From Siderastrea siderea (lineage: Eukaryota > Cnidaria > Anthozoa > Scleractinia > Rhizangiidae), in assembly GCA_964030785.1 (NCBI GenBank), contig OZ034975.1:14022142-14086141 (forward strand): a DNA stretch of 64,000 bases. The letters are read 5' to 3'. A program made the position numbers and the translations under genes. Under the pieces are notes generated by a model. That model saw only the letters and a program-made list of their open reading frames with translations, was not told the origin of the DNA and made no database searches. Below are positions 55,139 to 63,067 of the stretch, piece by piece; positions within the stretch are counted from its first letter, which is position 1, and each line of letters opens with the position of its first letter.

Positions 55139-55320
55139 CACGTGCCCAGCGTATCCAATCGAACAAAATCGAACCAAAACTCAGTCGAACCCAATCGAAC
55201 ACCAATCGTTCGATTGGGTTCGGTAATCGAACAAAATCGAACATTTTGTTGTGAATTCGATTTTCGAACCAATCGAACACACTCGAACACAATCGAACTC
55301 AATCGAACTCAATCCGGTTC
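55139..55320. repeat. left terminal inverted repeat
   Basis: Outer tip CACGTGCCCAGCGTATCC, followed by about ten AATCGAAC or AATCGAACNNAA words in one orientation and one inverted pair (CGTTCGATTGGG). The array has the look of repeated transposase-binding sites. Confidence 0.75.
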
Positions 55321-55498
55321 GATTTTGTCCGGAATCCATCTCTTGATAAGTAAATCACGCAAGACTAATCATAATCAACTTTTATTGAATGGAATAAATA
55401 GAAAAACGTCCAAATATCGAACTGAATGTCAATGTTGGGGAATATATATTTTGTAGAAGAGAACAAAACGACGGTAAAATACTGAAATGCACTTTCGT

Positions 55499-56089
55499 TT
55501 ACATTTCTATACTAGAAGGAAGGATATGGTTTCTGCCTTGAGTGTCACCGTTACACTCAAACAGAAGTTGCACCATTTCATTCACTGCAACACAGGCAGT
55601 GGTGTTCAATATGTGAAGAATCATTATAAGTAGCCAAAACGCTGCCGCCATAAGTCTGTCCAAGCCCTCAAGGGCGGCTAAAAGCGACGTTGACAGGAGA
55701 AGAGCAATTTCCAGCATGACAACAATTACATCGGACGAAGTGCTTACTATCAACAGGGATGACAAAAATAACAAGTGAACAAGTAAAACAATTTTTTTCG
55801 TTAGATCGAAATCATCGTAATAAGCAAAAAACTTGCATGAAAAATTTACTTGAGTTTCGGACGAGAAAGCTGTTCGGCTGCCCGAGCCGTGGTTCTTGAA
55901 ATCAATCGACGCAGAATTAATGTCGCGTGCTTGAGAAATTTCTAATGAATTGTCCTGCGCATGCACCAGCTCACTCGTGCTGTCTGTCGTGCCATCGATT
56001 GGCCGAGTTATATTCAAGCTTGATCTTGCGTGAGTGACTTTATCAATAAGCTTTTGTTTTGAATCACTTGACTTAAATGAAAAGCCCAT
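55499..56089 (-). CDS. uncharacterised frame with SAP-like start and hydrophobic tail
   Basis: An ATG at 56089 opens 196 codons to a TAA. The start (FKSSDSKQKLIDKVTHARSS) resembles the helix-extended-helix of a SAP DNA-binding motif. The C-terminal half has two to three strongly hydrophobic stretches (KKIVLLVHLLFLSSLLIVS, VVMLEIALLLSTSLLAALEG, AAFWLLIMILHIL) that would be membrane segments. It is in the same frame as the end of the transposase, separated by a TAA and a TGA, so it may be the transposase C-terminus read through rather than a separate gene. A frameshift between the SAP-like and hydrophobic parts is also possible. Confidence 0.35.
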   Translation of the reverse strand: MGFSFKSSDSKQKLIDKVTHARSSLNITRPIDGTTDSTSELVHAQDNSLEISQARDINSASIDFKNHGSGSRTAFSSETQVNFSCKFFAYYDDFDLTKKIVLLVHLLFLSSLLIVSTSSDVIVVMLEIALLLSTSLLAALEGLDRLMAAAFWLLIMILHILNTTACVAVNEMVQLLFECNGDTQGRNHILPSSIEM

Positions 56090-56164
56090 TTCTAAAAAAA
56101 CTTCTCAAAGCAAAATAAATGTCATGTTCTTCGGATCCCCTGCTTTCAGTTGTTTGATTTTTTC

Positions 56165-59100
56165 TTATCTTTCTTTTTCTTCCTGTTTTGAACGCTTCGA
56201 TTCTTTCTCGACCAGCTCAGGAAGCTTATTATTGATGAACTCCTGATCCTCTTCCGTTATCGGAAAATTGCTGTTATGAGCCTCACCTTGTAAAACGCGA
56301 ACACGCTCCCTACTATTGCACCAAATGTATTTTTTGGTTTCAGTGTAGGAACTTGGCAGTAGATTTTCAGATCCCTTTTCGACGCCTTCAAATTCTAACA
56401 CAGCAAGTTCTGTTACACCGGGTAATTTTGAGCTTTCTTGGTCCAACTTTAGTACAGGGAAAGAAGTTGACGCTTTTAGGGTTCTGGCTATTCTGATGAC
56501 TTTACCCACCACTAATCCCACATTTGGAACAAATAGTCAGCAGCAAAATTTCCTAGGGTAAGGGTGGCTTTGTCGGTATTTAAGGAACTTTCTATTGAGT
56601 CATAAAAGTCACATCTAGACGATGAAAGCCATCTTGAAAGGCGCCCAGTTGTTGGTACATAAGTTTTTCCAATTTGTAAGGAAAGGAAATTTGCTATGTG
56701 GTACACTTGGCCATTGTATTCAACGTACTGTTCTGGTCTGAGTTCTCGGTATTTCTGTTGCCTTCTTCTTTTTTCGCTGTTTTCTTGGGTATTCTGCACA
56801 GAGAGTTCATTTTTTTCCAAAATTGATTTGTTATCCTTTGTCGCTTTTAATTTTTCTCGTTGAGGGTATAACTCGGCTATATCGCACTCGTGGTCATGAC
56901 AAACAAATGAATAATGATTTCTTTCATCGTCAGTTTTGAATTTAATACCTAGACATATTTCATGCCACCATTTCCCACAATCGGGAAACTCGCAACCTAT
57001 CCAATGGACGGTTCTTGGTTCTACAAATCCTTCTTCCTGGAACTTGCAAATTCCACGCTTAAAAAGCTGACAATTTTCTGGACCGCCTTCGTCGAGCACA
57101 TTTTCTGGATCGTCTTCTGAGCTAGTCTGCGCAATGATGCCTGCTAATTCAAGTCTGGTTGGGTCTTCTTGTTCAAGGCTGTTAAGCAAAATATTATTGT
57201 CCAGATCGTACAGTTCTTCAAAAGGTGCGATATATGCCTCGTCTGGAAATGCTGTTTTCTCTGACACAAACGCATTCGTTGGTGAGTTGAGAATCGTCAG
57301 TTCACCAGTTCGTTGATTTTTGTATACAACGTTGGCCGCCCTCAGTCCTGGGATCATTTCCATTTCTTCCCTGGTTTTAAGCATTTCCCTCTCTGCGTCC
57401 TTCATTCCTTCTATCACTTCACTTGCTAAATTACTGGGCCAAGCAGTTTTCTGTTTTGGGATTTCTTGCCGTCTGTTCTTGTGCTTTAACTCCAAAAGTC
57501 TGATAGTTCGCGCTGTTATGTCTAACATTTCCATGAAGTTAAAATTATTTTTTCCTTTTGTAAATCCACGAAGATAAGAAAAGAGAACTTCGCAAGAATC
57601 CGAACCCAGAAACCAGGGGCAAAATGGCACATCTGGAAAATACTTTGCAAGTATTAGCATATTCAAGATTACGGAATGACGTGCAAGAATTGTATCAGTG
57701 TGCGTTTGGTCTGATATAAAGTGCGTGTTTGGATTGTACTTTTCGTAAAAGACCCAAGTTTTCCAAAGTCTGAGAAAGATCACAGGTTTCCAAGCAAGGT
57801 TTGCTCTTTCCCTTGGCGATAAGTTTGTATCTGAAAAGCTGCGAAGCAAAGAAGAACCTACCGAAAGATACACCCTCAAACCTTTAGTCAATGCACCATT
57901 GGATTTCTTTAGACATTCGCAAACCGTAGGGTGCAGAATTTTTTTTGCCGCATCAACGTTTTGTTTGTCTCGGACAAATATGTCCGACTTCTATAATCCC
58001 GACTCTAATTTGTGTGTTTCATAGATTTCCATAAGGTACTCAATAAGGATGACATTTTTTGCCATCAGTAGCAGCCTCTTCGTGTTTAAAAGCTGATTCC
58101 TCCATTTTTTAATCAAATGCCTCCAGTCAGGCTGCATGACTGTGGTGGACAGTTGTGTACCGAATTGTTTCGTTTCGGAGGAGAAGTCAAAACCCTCGTA
58201 ATCGAGGGTTAATCCGTTGTCCCGTTGTTTGCCTTTGGTGTATTTGTCCAGAAAGAACTTCCTGAATTTTGAGTCCCCGTCTGCTCCAATACCAATGATA
58301 CGAATGTAATTTTCCGAACCCATTCGAACTGCTTCCTTATACCAGTTAGCAACTGTTTCTAAGGTCTCACCTGACATGACTGGGCTTAGCGCAAGACCAT
58401 AGAACGGCTCGGATACGTAGACTGGAGCTAATACAAACGTATTCACAAGTTTAGTTTTTGGAAGTGATCTATCTCCAGTTATTCTAATGATATCTTCTGC
58501 TGTACGTACGATAACATCCCCTTCTTTAGCAATACCATAAATTCTGTTACCGCTGACTTTTGAAGACGGTATCACTGGTGTGGCATCAACAGCAAGAATG
58601 AATGGCCCTTGTATACCAAGACGGTCAAAAAATGCTCGTGCACGCGAGAACAACGACGACTCAAGTTTTTGCGGAATGGTATAAGGCAATCGAACTGTTT
58701 TGTATAATGTTGTGAGTGAAGGACCACCCATAGTTTCCCTAACTCGACTCACTAAAGCTGGTCCACCATAGTCCAGAATAAACGCAAAAAGTGACTTGCT
58801 ACTGTCAGACCATTGCTTTCCGCTCCTTTTCCCGTTGTTTGTAATAAGATCAGAAACGATAGCAAGAAGCTCGTTGTTATTGTCTTTTTCCGGATTTGAT
58901 AACATTTCCGCAAATTTTTTCAGTGTTGGATGAACAACTGCACGTTCGCTCATTTGCTTGTGCAAAACCTCTTTCATAGCAAAGTACCCGCAAATTTGGA
59001 CGGTCATTTCTTGCAGCAGTTTAGTTGAAGCGTGTGAACGATGCTCCATTTCTTCATTTGCAAAAACAAAATTTTTAATTAAGTCAATATTTGGAAACTG

Positions 59101-59679
59101 CGCTAGCATAATCTCATTTTCGAAATTGATCTTTGAGACTTCGACTTAATTCCACTAACTTTTTGCGCTCGTCGTTTGCTTTCATTTCAGTAAAGACAGC
59201 AGCATAAATGGCAGCATTGACAATAACTTCCGACTCAACGGCCACTTTTTAACGTTGTTGATTGTACATCTCCTCCATGGAAAGAAAAGCTGTTGCCAAT
59301 GTCCTTCCCTTGTCTACCTCCATTTCATGTTTTTTCTTTTTACACCCTATTTTGATAAAAGAAATAAAAAATTAACGCATATAAGTCTGAAACAGTTTGC
59401 GAGTTTCGGGGTTACTTTGTTTTGTAAATGTTAAACGCACCAAAAAGTTTGAATGTTTTAATGATCATCACCATCATCATCATCATCCTCAATTCATTTT
59501 TTCATTTCATTGTTTCGTTTCATAACTTATCCCTGGGGTTATCGTAAATCCCCTATACAGTACGTAATAACTTAGTCCCTCTCCCCAAATTTAATTAGCA
59601 ATGAGCTTGCTTCAAATTTGCCAAAGGCACACATTGATAGTAAGTTAAAATATTTACGAACCTTACAAATTTCATCCAT
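56165..59679 (-). pseudogene. DDE-type transposase with PHD-like finger, decayed
   Basis: Candidate start ATG 59679 (exon 59667-59679, donor T|GTAAGG), main exon from 59346. Blocks: N-terminal helix region (EVDKGRTLATAFLSMEEMYN) with TAA at 59249-59251; frameshift near 59116-59146; core 59109-57991 with ILAVDATPVIP (Asp about residue 175), IGIGADGDSKFR (about 277-279) and QPDWRHLIKKWRN (about 326-338); TAG at 57991-57993; same frame on with GSDSCEVLFSYLRG, the likely catalytic Glu, then a Cys/His cluster C-x4-C-x4-H-x2-C...C (WIGCEFPDCGKWWHEICLG) like a PHD finger; frameshift near 56515; tail ELAVLEFEGVEKG and TKKYIWCN to a TAA at 56165. The D-D-(H..K.RN)-E order recalls P-element/KDZ-like RNase-H transposases; the superfamily is not settled. 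Confidence 0.62.
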
Positions 59680-59952
59680 TTGACAAATACTCTTCAAAGC
59701 TGAAACATCTGCAAAAGGTTGTGTGCCAAAGGGCGGTCCAGGGCAACAGATAGGCTCTTGATTCACTTTTGTGGTTTCCGGTCTGTGATGTCCGCGGGAA
59801 TTTCCGTCTGATGACTTGAAGAAACTTGATATAAGACCTGGAAATGACCGGAAATAAGTAACAGATCGAAATACCGCAGAATATTATAAACCGTGTAATT
59901 AACCGGAAACTATCTTGCGAAAGCGTTAACGTTAGCACTAGCAGAAATAAAC

Positions 59953-60541
59953 ATGAGCACGTTTAAAATAACAGTGAAGGATGATCAGAAAGGTATGCTC
60001 CAAGATGCCTTGAGAGAGCTTCAAGGATCGATTCAGTTTGAGGTAGTGGAGCTGGCAAATTCTGCTCCGGAGATACACGAGATAAATGTCCAGAATGTGG
60101 CGCAGGAATAGGACACAGATGAGGGAGAGGAGGATGAAGGCCCTAAGGAGATAGCAGATAAAATATCAAAGTGGCTGAAACGAAAGCTCGCTCAGATTTT
60201 GTCAAGTATATCAACCGGTCAAAGTCAACATTCACCGACATGCTAAAGCGACCGCCTGCTTCACTATCCAAGGGCGCTGGAAAAGAATCGTGGATAAGGA
60301 TACGCGACTTTCTCAAAGACGAAGCATCTCGACGCTCATTTCTTGACGACTTTGGTGCAAAGAGGAGAAAGCGACCGGCTGCAATTCCTAAAGACCGGGC
60401 TACAGACCCAGAAACAAATGAGCCCCCAGCAAAACAACAGCCTGCGAAGTTCGAGAAGTGGCAGCAAGCCAGTGTAATGGAAAACCACAAAGCGAAACGC
60501 TGGATAAGCTGAGCAAGACAATCAAGATTGGAAAAGACAAG
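59953..60541 (+). pseudogene. CUT-like DNA-binding protein, first exon with a stop and frameshifts
   Basis: ATG 59953 opens MSTFKITVKDDQKGMLQDAL...INVQNVAQE, then TAG at 60109-60111. The same frame continues with an acidic linker and PKEIADKISKWLKR. A one-base shift near 60180 leads into RSDFVKYINRSKSTFTDMLK, RPPASL and GAGKESWIRIRDFLKDE. This matches the CUT-domain pattern (I...I...L, SQ..F....L.RSQGT.SDLL..P, GRE.F..M..WL) as I know it. A basic segment (AKRRKRP) could be a nuclear signal. A further shift near 60485 would join LDKLSKTIKIGKDK to a donor, AAG|GTAAGA, at 60541. No next exon is certain. Position suggests a DNA-binding partner of the transposase. Confidence 0.5.
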
Positions 60542-60720
60542 GTAAGATTATTTAGCGCCGGGTTTCGAAAATGTAAAATGCTCACCAGACTTTTTCAGGG
60601 AAATATAAACTCTTTATATTATCTGTCATTTTTTTAAGTCAGGCACCCGACATGCAGGTTTACACAAACACATTCTGATTTCTGGTTAACACCCGCAAGA
60701 TTCCCGGACAGCTTGTAAAT

Positions 60721-61269
60721 TTATCTTTCCCGCATTATTGCCCTAATACCAAGTTTTAAGAGATCGTTCTTTAATTCCATAATCTTGCTTCGAGTTTCTT
60801 CCGTTTCCACTCTTACTGGGACGTTAATTCCTCCACCAACACGCCATCTTCCTCTTGGATCATCGAAGGGCCTTCCAATAACTGTGCTGTAAAAAAATAT
60901 CAGGGTTTATTTAACGAAGCGAACGTCAGCCTGTCAGTCAGGTCTAGCCTCAGGGTCATGACATTTACACCGTTCGAACGCGATCTATTTAGCCCTAAAT
61001 CGGATCACTACTCACCATTTCATTCCGTCCTTGAAAAACCAAAGAGGCGAGACCATCGCCCGCTCAAGATGTCCTAACTGGCCTCTAGTGTTAGTCACTT
61101 TAAACGCTCTTCCTTTGGAACTGATCTTCTTAAAAATTCGAAACTCTTCTCCCACATCAACGCTAAAAGGACATTCTTGATATCCTTTTACAGTACATGT
61201 AATTTCGATGTATGCAGTCTCCTCCCGGGTCTCCTGGAAATCGCTTCGGGTTCTTGATGCTCTCGACAT
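60721..61269 (-). CDS. HIRAN-like small protein, two exons, intact
   Basis: Exon 1 (61269-61016) starts MSRASRTRSDFQETREE and runs through ITCTVKGYQECPFSVDVGEE and VTNTRGQLGHLERAMVSPL. It ends after two bases of a codon at a consensus donor, TG|GTGAGT. Exon 2 (60886-60721) follows TTTTTACAG and continues CTVIGRPFDDPRGRWRVGGG to LGIRAIMRER and TAA. Phases fit and the product is 139 residues. The pattern G-x-V..G..F-x(8)-G-x-LGHL resembles a HIRAN domain, a fold that binds single-stranded 3-prime DNA ends in HLTF-type helicases. It is the only undamaged gene of the element, which suggests either retained use or chance. HIRAN identity is tentative. Confidence 0.55.
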
Positions 61270-61455
61270 TTCTTTTTGGGTTGACCAAAGCTAGCAGTGA
61301 TTCGACCTTTAGCAAAATTTCCCCCAAACACGTGGCTAACTATTGTGCACGTGGCTATTATGCAGACAATCGTCCTATCCCGGGGTATGGCGAATCGCCA
61401 AAAAAGGATTAGGGGAACGGTGCACCGTACAAAATGTCTGCAGTATAAACAAACA

Positions 61456-61642
61456 GGAGTTCGGTAATCGAACGTTCGATTGAGTTCGATTGTTGACTGT
61501 TCGGTAATCGAACGTTCGATTGAGTTCGATTGACCAAATTTTATTGTGAGTTCGATTATGTTCGATTACCGAACCCAAGCGAACGATTGGTGTTCGATTG
61601 GGTTCGATTACCGAACGTTCGATTGGATACGCCGGGCGCGTG
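61456..61642. repeat. right terminal inverted repeat
   Basis: Mirrors the left end: GTTCGATT words dominate, inverted pairs occur as AATCGAACGTTCGATT, and the tip is GGATACGCCGGGCGCGTG. The array is similar to but not collinear base for base with the left end. Confidence 0.75.
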
Positions 61643-63067
61643 GAATCGACCGTTATCTCCTGGTATCTCCAGATTGATTTTCAACTAATGAATAACAACT
61701 CCGCCATCACATTCACATCCCTTAACGAATGGCAAATGAATTTTTAAAATCTCTTAGTGTTAATTCCTTGAAAAACTAAATAACTTTGGAGTGATCTCCA
61801 CATTCATCTCAGAAACCGCACTGTTATTATGGTCTGATTTAACTAAATTTGTCTGTCACGCAACGGGTTCTGGTCAAGTCACAGGATAGGTTTTGGCGAT
61901 GAGATTGCAAAAAGGGAAAAAAAATCGAAAGATTAGGACGTTTGAAATACCTTAAGATAGAAGGCGATATAAATAGTGATGGCGTTTGTTTCAGCAACTC
62001 GACCGGAATGACCGTTTCCCGTTTTCATCCCAGATGTCGGAATACCTCAATGTATAAACAAACCGCAGAGATAGCTGAATTTTTTCCATGATTTAAACGA
62101 AAGCATATCGAAGGCTAACAAAGAAGGCATCCATTTGTTTTTTACAATATATTATAATATATTGCAATATATTATTATATATTGCAATATATTATATATT
62201 ATAATATATTACAATATATTATAATATATTTTACAATATATTATATTGTAAAGTTTAACTTTTTTTCCTTTTTCTATTTGGTAATAAAGCTTGTTGTTGT
62301 ACAAGCTTCCTGAAAATTTTAAGTTCACTTTTCTCTATAATAGTGAGTTTTCAATGCGTAGCACTTGGCTACAACTGCGTTTGTTTACTCACATTCCGTC
62401 CTCCTGTTTGGTGTCATGTTACACCGCCGAAGTTATGCCTGAAATATCTTTCGATTAGTAAAATAGAGTGATACTACATATGACGGGACTATTCACCACA
62501 CAATTCTGACCTGTGCAAAACAAGTTGCAGATGACATAGATGTACAATTTGTGACGCTCTGGCGCTCTCTAGAAGCAGACCCAGAAACAAATTAGCTTCC
62601 GATAGTCTAAAATAGTAAACATCGATATATATTTTTTATATCTTACTGCAGTGTTCGACTTTTCAAGTCTAATTAATTTCACGGTGAAGGATTTCAATAT
62701 TATTTGCAAGCCACCAGTGTCGCGTCGAAGAAGGCGCCTTGAGAAGCTGCCATTTGCAGAAATGTTGGAAATCAGGCGTGTGAGAATTTCAGGTGCGGCA
62801 TTATTGGAAACTAGACAAAATGTCTTAAGTGCGGATCGGCTTTGAGTAAATGTTCAAAAACTGATAATTTTCGCTAAAAAAAAAAAGAAAAAAAGGAAAA
62901 CGCCAGATTTAACACGCAGCAGCTGTAGAGCGCTTCCTCTATATCGTGCCATTGTGACTTTTCGGGTCACACTTGCAGTGTTGGAATCAGCGATATTCAC
63001 TCAGAAGTTGAGCTTCGTTGATTTTCCTTTAGCACGCGCAATAGTATTTTTAATTAGTATTCTTAAC
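61643..63067. other. no recognisable gene; AT palindromic repeat
   Basis: Contains an ATATATTATAATATATTGCA-type repeat at about 62147-62254 that can form cruciform-like hairpins. A frame at 62651-62845 (SRRRRRLEKLPFAEML region) is open and slightly basic but not assignable. The last 150 bases are the likely leader of the following exon. Confidence 0.4.

Follow-up and report, generated by a model that had tools for sequence, protein, structure and literature searches.

Ends and genes of the element

The 64,000-nucleotide stretch of Siderastrea siderea DNA under study (contig OZ034975.1; here called the window) contains a DNA transposon of 6492 bp, located at 55145-61636, with a transposase gene, a CUT-homeodomain gene and a predicted HIRAN gene. 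Its termini, which were fixed by comparison with other copies, share the consensus CCC(A/G)GCGTATC. The left terminal inverted repeat is located at 55145-55242 (plus strand; tip CCCAGCGTATCC) and the right one at 61550-61636 (minus strand; tip GGATACGCCGGG). The original prediction had described matching inverted ends about 6.5 kb apart. Such ends are present (55139-55164 matches 61617-61642 at 92%, and 55185-55242 matches 61550-61607 at 97%) and their sequences are repeated in the same genome beyond chance, but the outer 6 bp on each side are not part of them. These hexamers, CACGTG on the left (55139-55144) and CGCGTG on the right (61637-61642), are the target-site duplication and match at 5 of 6 positions. 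The three separate gene-like units claimed between the ends were all located: the transposase gene on the minus strand, the CUT gene on the plus strand and the HIRAN gene on the minus strand. The window copy is inactive and decayed, because both the transposase gene (in-frame stops at 57991-57993, 56165-56167 and 56105-56107) and the CUT gene (in-frame stop at 60109-60111) contain stops and frameshifts. The outer limits of these two genes were read by eye.

The transposase gene (55502-59323, minus strand; start assigned by eye) encodes a DDE core, a PHD finger, a HeH-like motif and a membrane tail. The region of the core and the PHD finger (56539-58977, minus strand) was aligned to residues 130-953 of the transposase of relative L039 with 40% identity, and the catalytic D, D, DxxH and E residues are conserved (alignment A1). 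The PHD-type zinc finger itself (56890-57009, minus strand) matched PF22908 with an E value of 0.0033, below the cut-off that was reached in relatives P0052, P0053 and L042. The HeH/LEM-like (SAP-like) motif at 56021-56125 (minus strand) was recognised by eye against relatives with matches to PF12949 (HeH), whose E values ranged from 1.7e-5 (L040; 24.9 bits versus a cut-off of 28.9) to 0.083 (P0052). Three membrane-spanning stretches are predicted in the C-terminal tail (55583-55792, minus strand; Kyte-Doolittle 19-residue means of 2.05-2.42). A membrane-rich frame had been proposed as a further unit; it is present at 55499-56104, but as the C-terminal region of the transposase, given that core and tail share a single open frame in relatives L039 (1286 amino acids) and P0051-P0054. 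This rules it out as a gene of its own. In relative L040 a second frame (L040:8039-8386) repeats the tail peptide of L040:6531-7997, and the tail-coding segment seems to be locally duplicated there.

The first exon of the CUT-homeodomain gene, at 59953-60541 (plus strand), is broken; it matched PF02376 (CUT) with an E value of 1.1e-4 and is followed by a splice donor at 60542. The homeodomain part of the window copy was recognised by eye. In relatives, PF02376 (E value of 3.1e-12 in L044) and PF00046 (Homeodomain; 1.2e-6 in L040) both scored above the curated cut-off, and in six elements a separate downstream exon contains the helix-3 pattern W-F-Q-N-(R/K)-R. Thus, the CUT domain of the original description is present, but that description was incomplete, since the relatives also have a homeodomain. 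The closest sequences to the protein in the PDB were HNF-6 and ONECUT2 (E values of 0.04-0.12).

The HIRAN gene consists of exon 1 (61016-61269, minus strand) and, after a 129-bp GT-AG intron, exon 2 (60721-60886, minus strand). A single GT-AG intron of 69-144 bp is present in this gene at all nine loci given, one such intron having been required by the search. Because Pfam gave no HIRAN match, the identity of the protein was settled by its predicted fold, using a model of relative P0058 with a predicted local distance difference test (pLDDT) score of 76. Exon 1 fused directly to the transposase membrane tail was observed in a 143-amino-acid database protein, P0143, as would be expected of an internal-deletion derivative in which both ends were joined in frame.

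Copies of the element and conservation of the gene set

The genome (831 Mb, 402 contigs) was searched for other copies. With 40 of 459 left and 40 of 563 right candidates scored, there were at least 47 matches to the left 262 bp and at least 52 to the right 263 bp, counting self matches and fragments. Further copies were found in this way, among them the near-complete sister L011 (contig C7, 7228 bp; 94.6% identity over the longest aligned piece), which has all genes of the window copy. At L011:576-850 two left tips are each preceded by an identical 25-bp flank, which suggests a local duplication of flank and end. The short end pairs examined (L020-L029) are derivatives of 0.4-1.1 kb; they have retained pieces of the ends and, in many cases, a portion of HIRAN exon 1 or of the tail. 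Several end pairs 7-9 kb apart were rejected as full copies: L012 has no open reading frame of 150 amino acids, L013/L014 consists of a short element next to a GPCR-like gene (assigned by eye) in tandem duplicates, and L015/L016 has kept HIRAN exon 1 alone, together with an unrelated reverse-transcriptase-like open reading frame (by eye). A THAP-like open frame (by eye; L017:1333-1833) in a non-autonomous 3.3-kb copy probably comes from another inserted element.

Searches with the genes gave 32 matches in 22 clusters for the transposase, 9 for CUT and at least 150 for HIRAN exon 1 (150 of 360 candidates scored). In eight places a match to this exon was found no more than 1.5 kb from a left-end match, and the exon seems to persist in derivatives that have kept an end. 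Sixteen of the 22 transposase clusters were examined (window, L011, L037, L038, L039/41, L040, L042/52, L043/53, L044/50, L045/46/51, L049 and L054-L058); they are not all independent, as L044/L038 and L045/L039 are close pairs. The same three genes were not found in all copies. L011 has all three, and CUT is present at 15 of the 16 loci (it is missing from L057, and at L055 it is weak but accompanied by the homeodomain), but HIRAN was found at only 10, in one of them (L039/41) as exon 2 only. In that copy a tyrosine-recombinase-like sequence (by eye) lies upstream of the exon. Gene order and strand are constant in most loci, the exceptions being L042/52, where the CUT gene is on the outer side of HIRAN, and L049, where HIRAN is inverted.

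A fourth small open reading frame is present at 11 of the 16 loci and missing from the window, L011, L049, L056 and L057. The frame is 96-139 amino acids long and has a C2H2-like pattern by eye. Nine of the 11 frames were recovered for comparison (all except L037 and L058). In eight of the nine the first methionine is followed by a hydrophobic, signal-peptide-like start, often with CAPH or SAPH next; allowing for two near-duplicate pairs, these are six independent cases. The L055 frame looks truncated, and the hydrophobic stretch of L037 is weaker. These features suggest that the fourth protein is likely to be secreted by means of a signal peptide.

In two elements, L037 (8002 bp) and L040/L066 (8146 bp), the HIRAN gene, the fourth gene, the CUT gene and the transposase with its tail are all located inside inverted ends, and each element is flanked by a perfect 6-bp duplication. 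Overall, perfect 6-bp duplications were found at 11 of 16 distinct insertions in the genome. Seventeen scored end pairs represent 13 of these: 10 are perfect, the window and L015/L016 match at 5 of 6 positions, and L024 has 7 bp. Three further end pairs gave a perfect 6 bp (L040/L066), 9 bp (L050/L044) and no clear duplication (L065/L038). The count excludes the single-tip loci L018, L020, L025, L026, L027 and L030, as well as L019, which has no recognisable tip. The 9-bp case is an ATCGAT-type element with AGGTAGACT on either side (L050:453-461 and L044:8112-8120). The family consists of DNA transposons of 6.5-8 kb that are likely to move by cut and paste. Three named relatives of the encoded proteins were found, in Porites lobata, Actinostola and Montipora capricornis. 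Just beyond the window copy, at 62140-62260, there is an AT-rich run of AATATATTATAATATATTGC-type repeated units.

Comparison with described systems

As the original prediction had supposed, no described family with this set of transposase, CUT and HIRAN genes was found in the open-access literature. The same literature yielded no work joining the HIRAN domain with DNA transposons, and none joining CUT domain, homeodomain, transposase and DNA transposon. The transposase resembles that of the P element superfamily in its RNase H-like DDE core, for which a P-type fold is predicted, and in the order of its D, D, DxxH and E motifs. Canonical P-type transposases (frames of up to 686 amino acids among the loci opened) coexist in the genome as a separate clade; PF21787 matches 45 places, none of which is a locus of the family studied here. 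P elements carry an N-terminal THAP DNA-binding domain. No Pfam match to THAP was found in P0051-P0054, L039, L040 or the N-terminal frame of L037, although an upstream exon may be missing. The family further differs in its short-repeat end arrays, PHD finger, HeH-like motif, membrane tail and partner genes, and in a target duplication of 6 bp versus about 8 bp for P elements in the available portion of PMC3706591. Because of the 6-bp duplication and the missing THAP domain we file the family as P-like but as a separate clade.

Other families share single traits. According to the same portion of PMC3706591, Dada elements have a DDE transposase with a DxxH motif and target duplications of 6-7 bp, but they carry CCCC and CCHC fingers, and Dada-U6/U1 target small RNA genes and are described there as having no terminal inverted repeats, which are present here. 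IS3EU elements likewise have 6-bp duplications and, in fungal members, accessory genes; in the accessible part of PMC12730594, however, the fungal families have TAYGG..CCRTA termini, versus CCCRGCGTATC here, and the accessory genes are TET/JBP and alpha-kinase genes. The coral CMITEs, piggyBac-type with TTAA duplications in the part of PMC2872659 available, and KolobokP, with duplications of TTAA or 3-5 bp in that of PMC9587614, were rejected as being the family studied here.

The individual proteins were compared as well. The CUT-homeodomain protein resembles ONECUT/CUX proteins in having CUT plus homeodomain and the helix 3 W-F-Q-N-R/K-R, but it is transposon-encoded and a single CUT domain was seen. 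Unlike the HIRAN domains of HLTF/Rad5, the one studied here is a free-standing small protein that has no helicase fusion and is not recognised by Pfam. HeH/LEM proteins of the inner nuclear membrane include Src1/Heh1 and MAN1. The transposase may share with these the combination of a HeH-like motif and subsequent predicted membrane helices; its motif, which scored below the HeH cut-off, belongs to a protein that also has a DDE core and a PHD finger.

Subterminal arrays and a proposed model of divided transposition

The ends of the window copy contain arrays of AATCGAAC-type repeats with an ATCGA core, at 55145-55340 on the left and 61459-61636 on the right. Counted on both strands, ATCGA has a density of 55 per kb within the terminal 200 bp, versus 2.2 per kb in the window. 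Every 6-mer was counted, with none singled out beforehand, in 19 stretches, five of which hold no array. In all 14 array-bearing stretches the commonest 6-mer was GTTCGA/AATCGA/ATCGAA, ATCGAT or ATCAAT/AATCAA, with 7-15 copies per 200 bp, whereas 300 random 200-bp draws of the same base composition never gave more than 4. The AATCGAAC type is present in the window, L011, L037, L054 and L049, the ATCGAT type in L038, L040, L044, L050, L052, L055 and L056, and the ATCAAT type in L039 and L046. ONECUT prefers ATCAAT. The ATCGA/ATCAA repeats in these end arrays are likely to be binding sites of the CUT-homeodomain protein that the element itself encodes.

We consider it probable that the element belongs to a multi-protein transposon family, with a membrane-tailed transposase of P-type fold, a CUT-homeodomain protein binding the ends, a HIRAN protein binding DNA ends and, mostly, a fourth protein with a signal peptide. 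The inference of the original prediction, a multi-protein transposition system in which the CUT-like protein recognises element or host DNA and the HIRAN-like protein handles DNA ends or recruits repair, is thereby supported, and the present reading goes further. It is supported by the retention of the gene set in divergent relatives, as well as by the inverted ends, the 6-bp duplications, the genomic copies, the CUT-type cores of the arrays and the D/D/DxxH/E residues; the folds of the transposase core and the HIRAN protein, the membrane helices and the signal-like start are predictions. From which parts are present, how conserved they are and what they resemble, we infer the role that each would have. 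No THAP domain was found in the transposase itself, and end recognition would probably be left to the CUT-homeodomain protein. Cutting and joining would be carried out by the P-type DDE core, probably with a GTP-binding insertion. The HIRAN protein may hold or protect the cut 3' ends or recruit repair, and the PHD finger may read chromatin. The HeH-like motif and the tail could tether the transposase at the inner nuclear membrane or the endoplasmic reticulum (ER), limiting where or when it is active, with the fourth protein perhaps on the luminal side alongside it.

Several observations weigh against parts of this reading. PF21787 (TNP-like_RNaseH_N), which canonical P-type members match at E values of about 1e-24, has no match in the family; PF21788 reached an E value of 0.011-0.013 in L039, below its cut-off, and did not match L040 or P0054; and hhalign gave a weak kinship to P elements (probability 12.7%, E value of 0.0023). 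The Pfam HIRAN model matched neither the single exons nor five spliced proteins, and a HIRAN profile run against PDB sequences found no HIRAN but one chance pyruvate kinase (E value of 0.31). Every HeH match is below the curated cut-off, and PF12949 did not match P0053 or L042 (SAP matched L042 at 0.09). The tail and signal-peptide calls come from hydropathy alone, a crude predictor, and Pfam has no zinc-finger match in the fourth protein. HIRAN was not found at six of the 16 loci (L043/53, L054, L055, L056, L057 and L058); the L058 stretch, alone among these, is plainly too short to judge, whereas at L054, L055 and L056 an end array lies within the fetched stretch, so that HIRAN is absent there or too diverged. 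The fourth gene is missing from the window copy and its sister L011, the window AATCGAAC repeat is one base off ATCGAT, and three insertions have, respectively, a 7-bp, a 9-bp and no clear duplication. Finally, ratios of nonsynonymous to synonymous substitution (dN/dS) between close copies, which are of little use as the members of a pair are both decaying or too similar, ranged by gene from 0.06 to 1.8. As some HIRAN, CUT, C-terminal and tail pairs exceed 1, selection on these parts is argued solely from conservation in distant relatives.

The patchy occurrence of HIRAN, and of the fourth gene (not found at five of the 16 loci, the window included), together with the predicted P-type fold of the core, would also fit an ordinary P-type transposon in which the transposase suffices and the other genes are captured host genes acting as passengers or regulators. 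We regard this as quite improbable: CUT has been kept at nearly all loci despite strong divergence, a CUT-type core is present in the arrays of every array-bearing stretch, and neither THAP nor another known end-binding domain was found in the transposase. A real possibility, though one that we doubt, is that the CUT-homeodomain protein regulates transcription from promoter sites in the arrays and has no part in end synapsis. CUT-homeodomain proteins are indeed transcription factors, as stated in the available part of PMC10515288, and the right array adjoins the start of the HIRAN gene; the arrays are nevertheless located at both ends, inverted, and are present in short derivatives with few genes as well, which is the pattern that end-recognition sites should show, and regulation and end recognition are mutually compatible.

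Returning to the multi-protein family, we also considered how its membrane tail might act. Transposition could be run at the nuclear membrane, with a P-fold transposase tethered by its HeH-like motif and helices, a captured CUT-homeodomain protein, in place of a DNA-binding domain of the transposase, as the guide to ends that are built from its binding sites, HIRAN capping the cut 3' ends and a secreted-type luminal partner; we hold this to be unlikely as a whole. The tail could instead be a switch, the tailed form being inactive in the ER or nuclear envelope and active once splicing or cleavage removes the tail. The repressor of the P element arises by intron retention. The tail follows the catalytic core at the C-terminus and can be separated from it, and an anchor and a switch would look alike in sequence; tail and core are, however, in one open frame in L039 and P0051-P0054, and we consider a switch somewhat unlikely.

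DNA transposons mostly have one or two genes, whereas this family appears to divide transposition among up to four proteins. One of these, of the transcription-factor type, would be matched to arrays of likely sites in the termini of the element that encodes it, and the array types ATCGAA, ATCGAT and ATCAAT of the subfamilies make end recognition open to testing. The HIRAN protein of this mobile element, which stands free of any helicase, provides a small natural setting in which to test what HIRAN does at DNA 3' ends outside HLTF/Rad5. A conserved membrane tail on a transposase would raise a question rarely asked of DNA transposons, namely whether integration can be restricted to the periphery of the nucleus; transposition at the nuclear membrane, if true, would make this the first membrane-anchored transposition machine.

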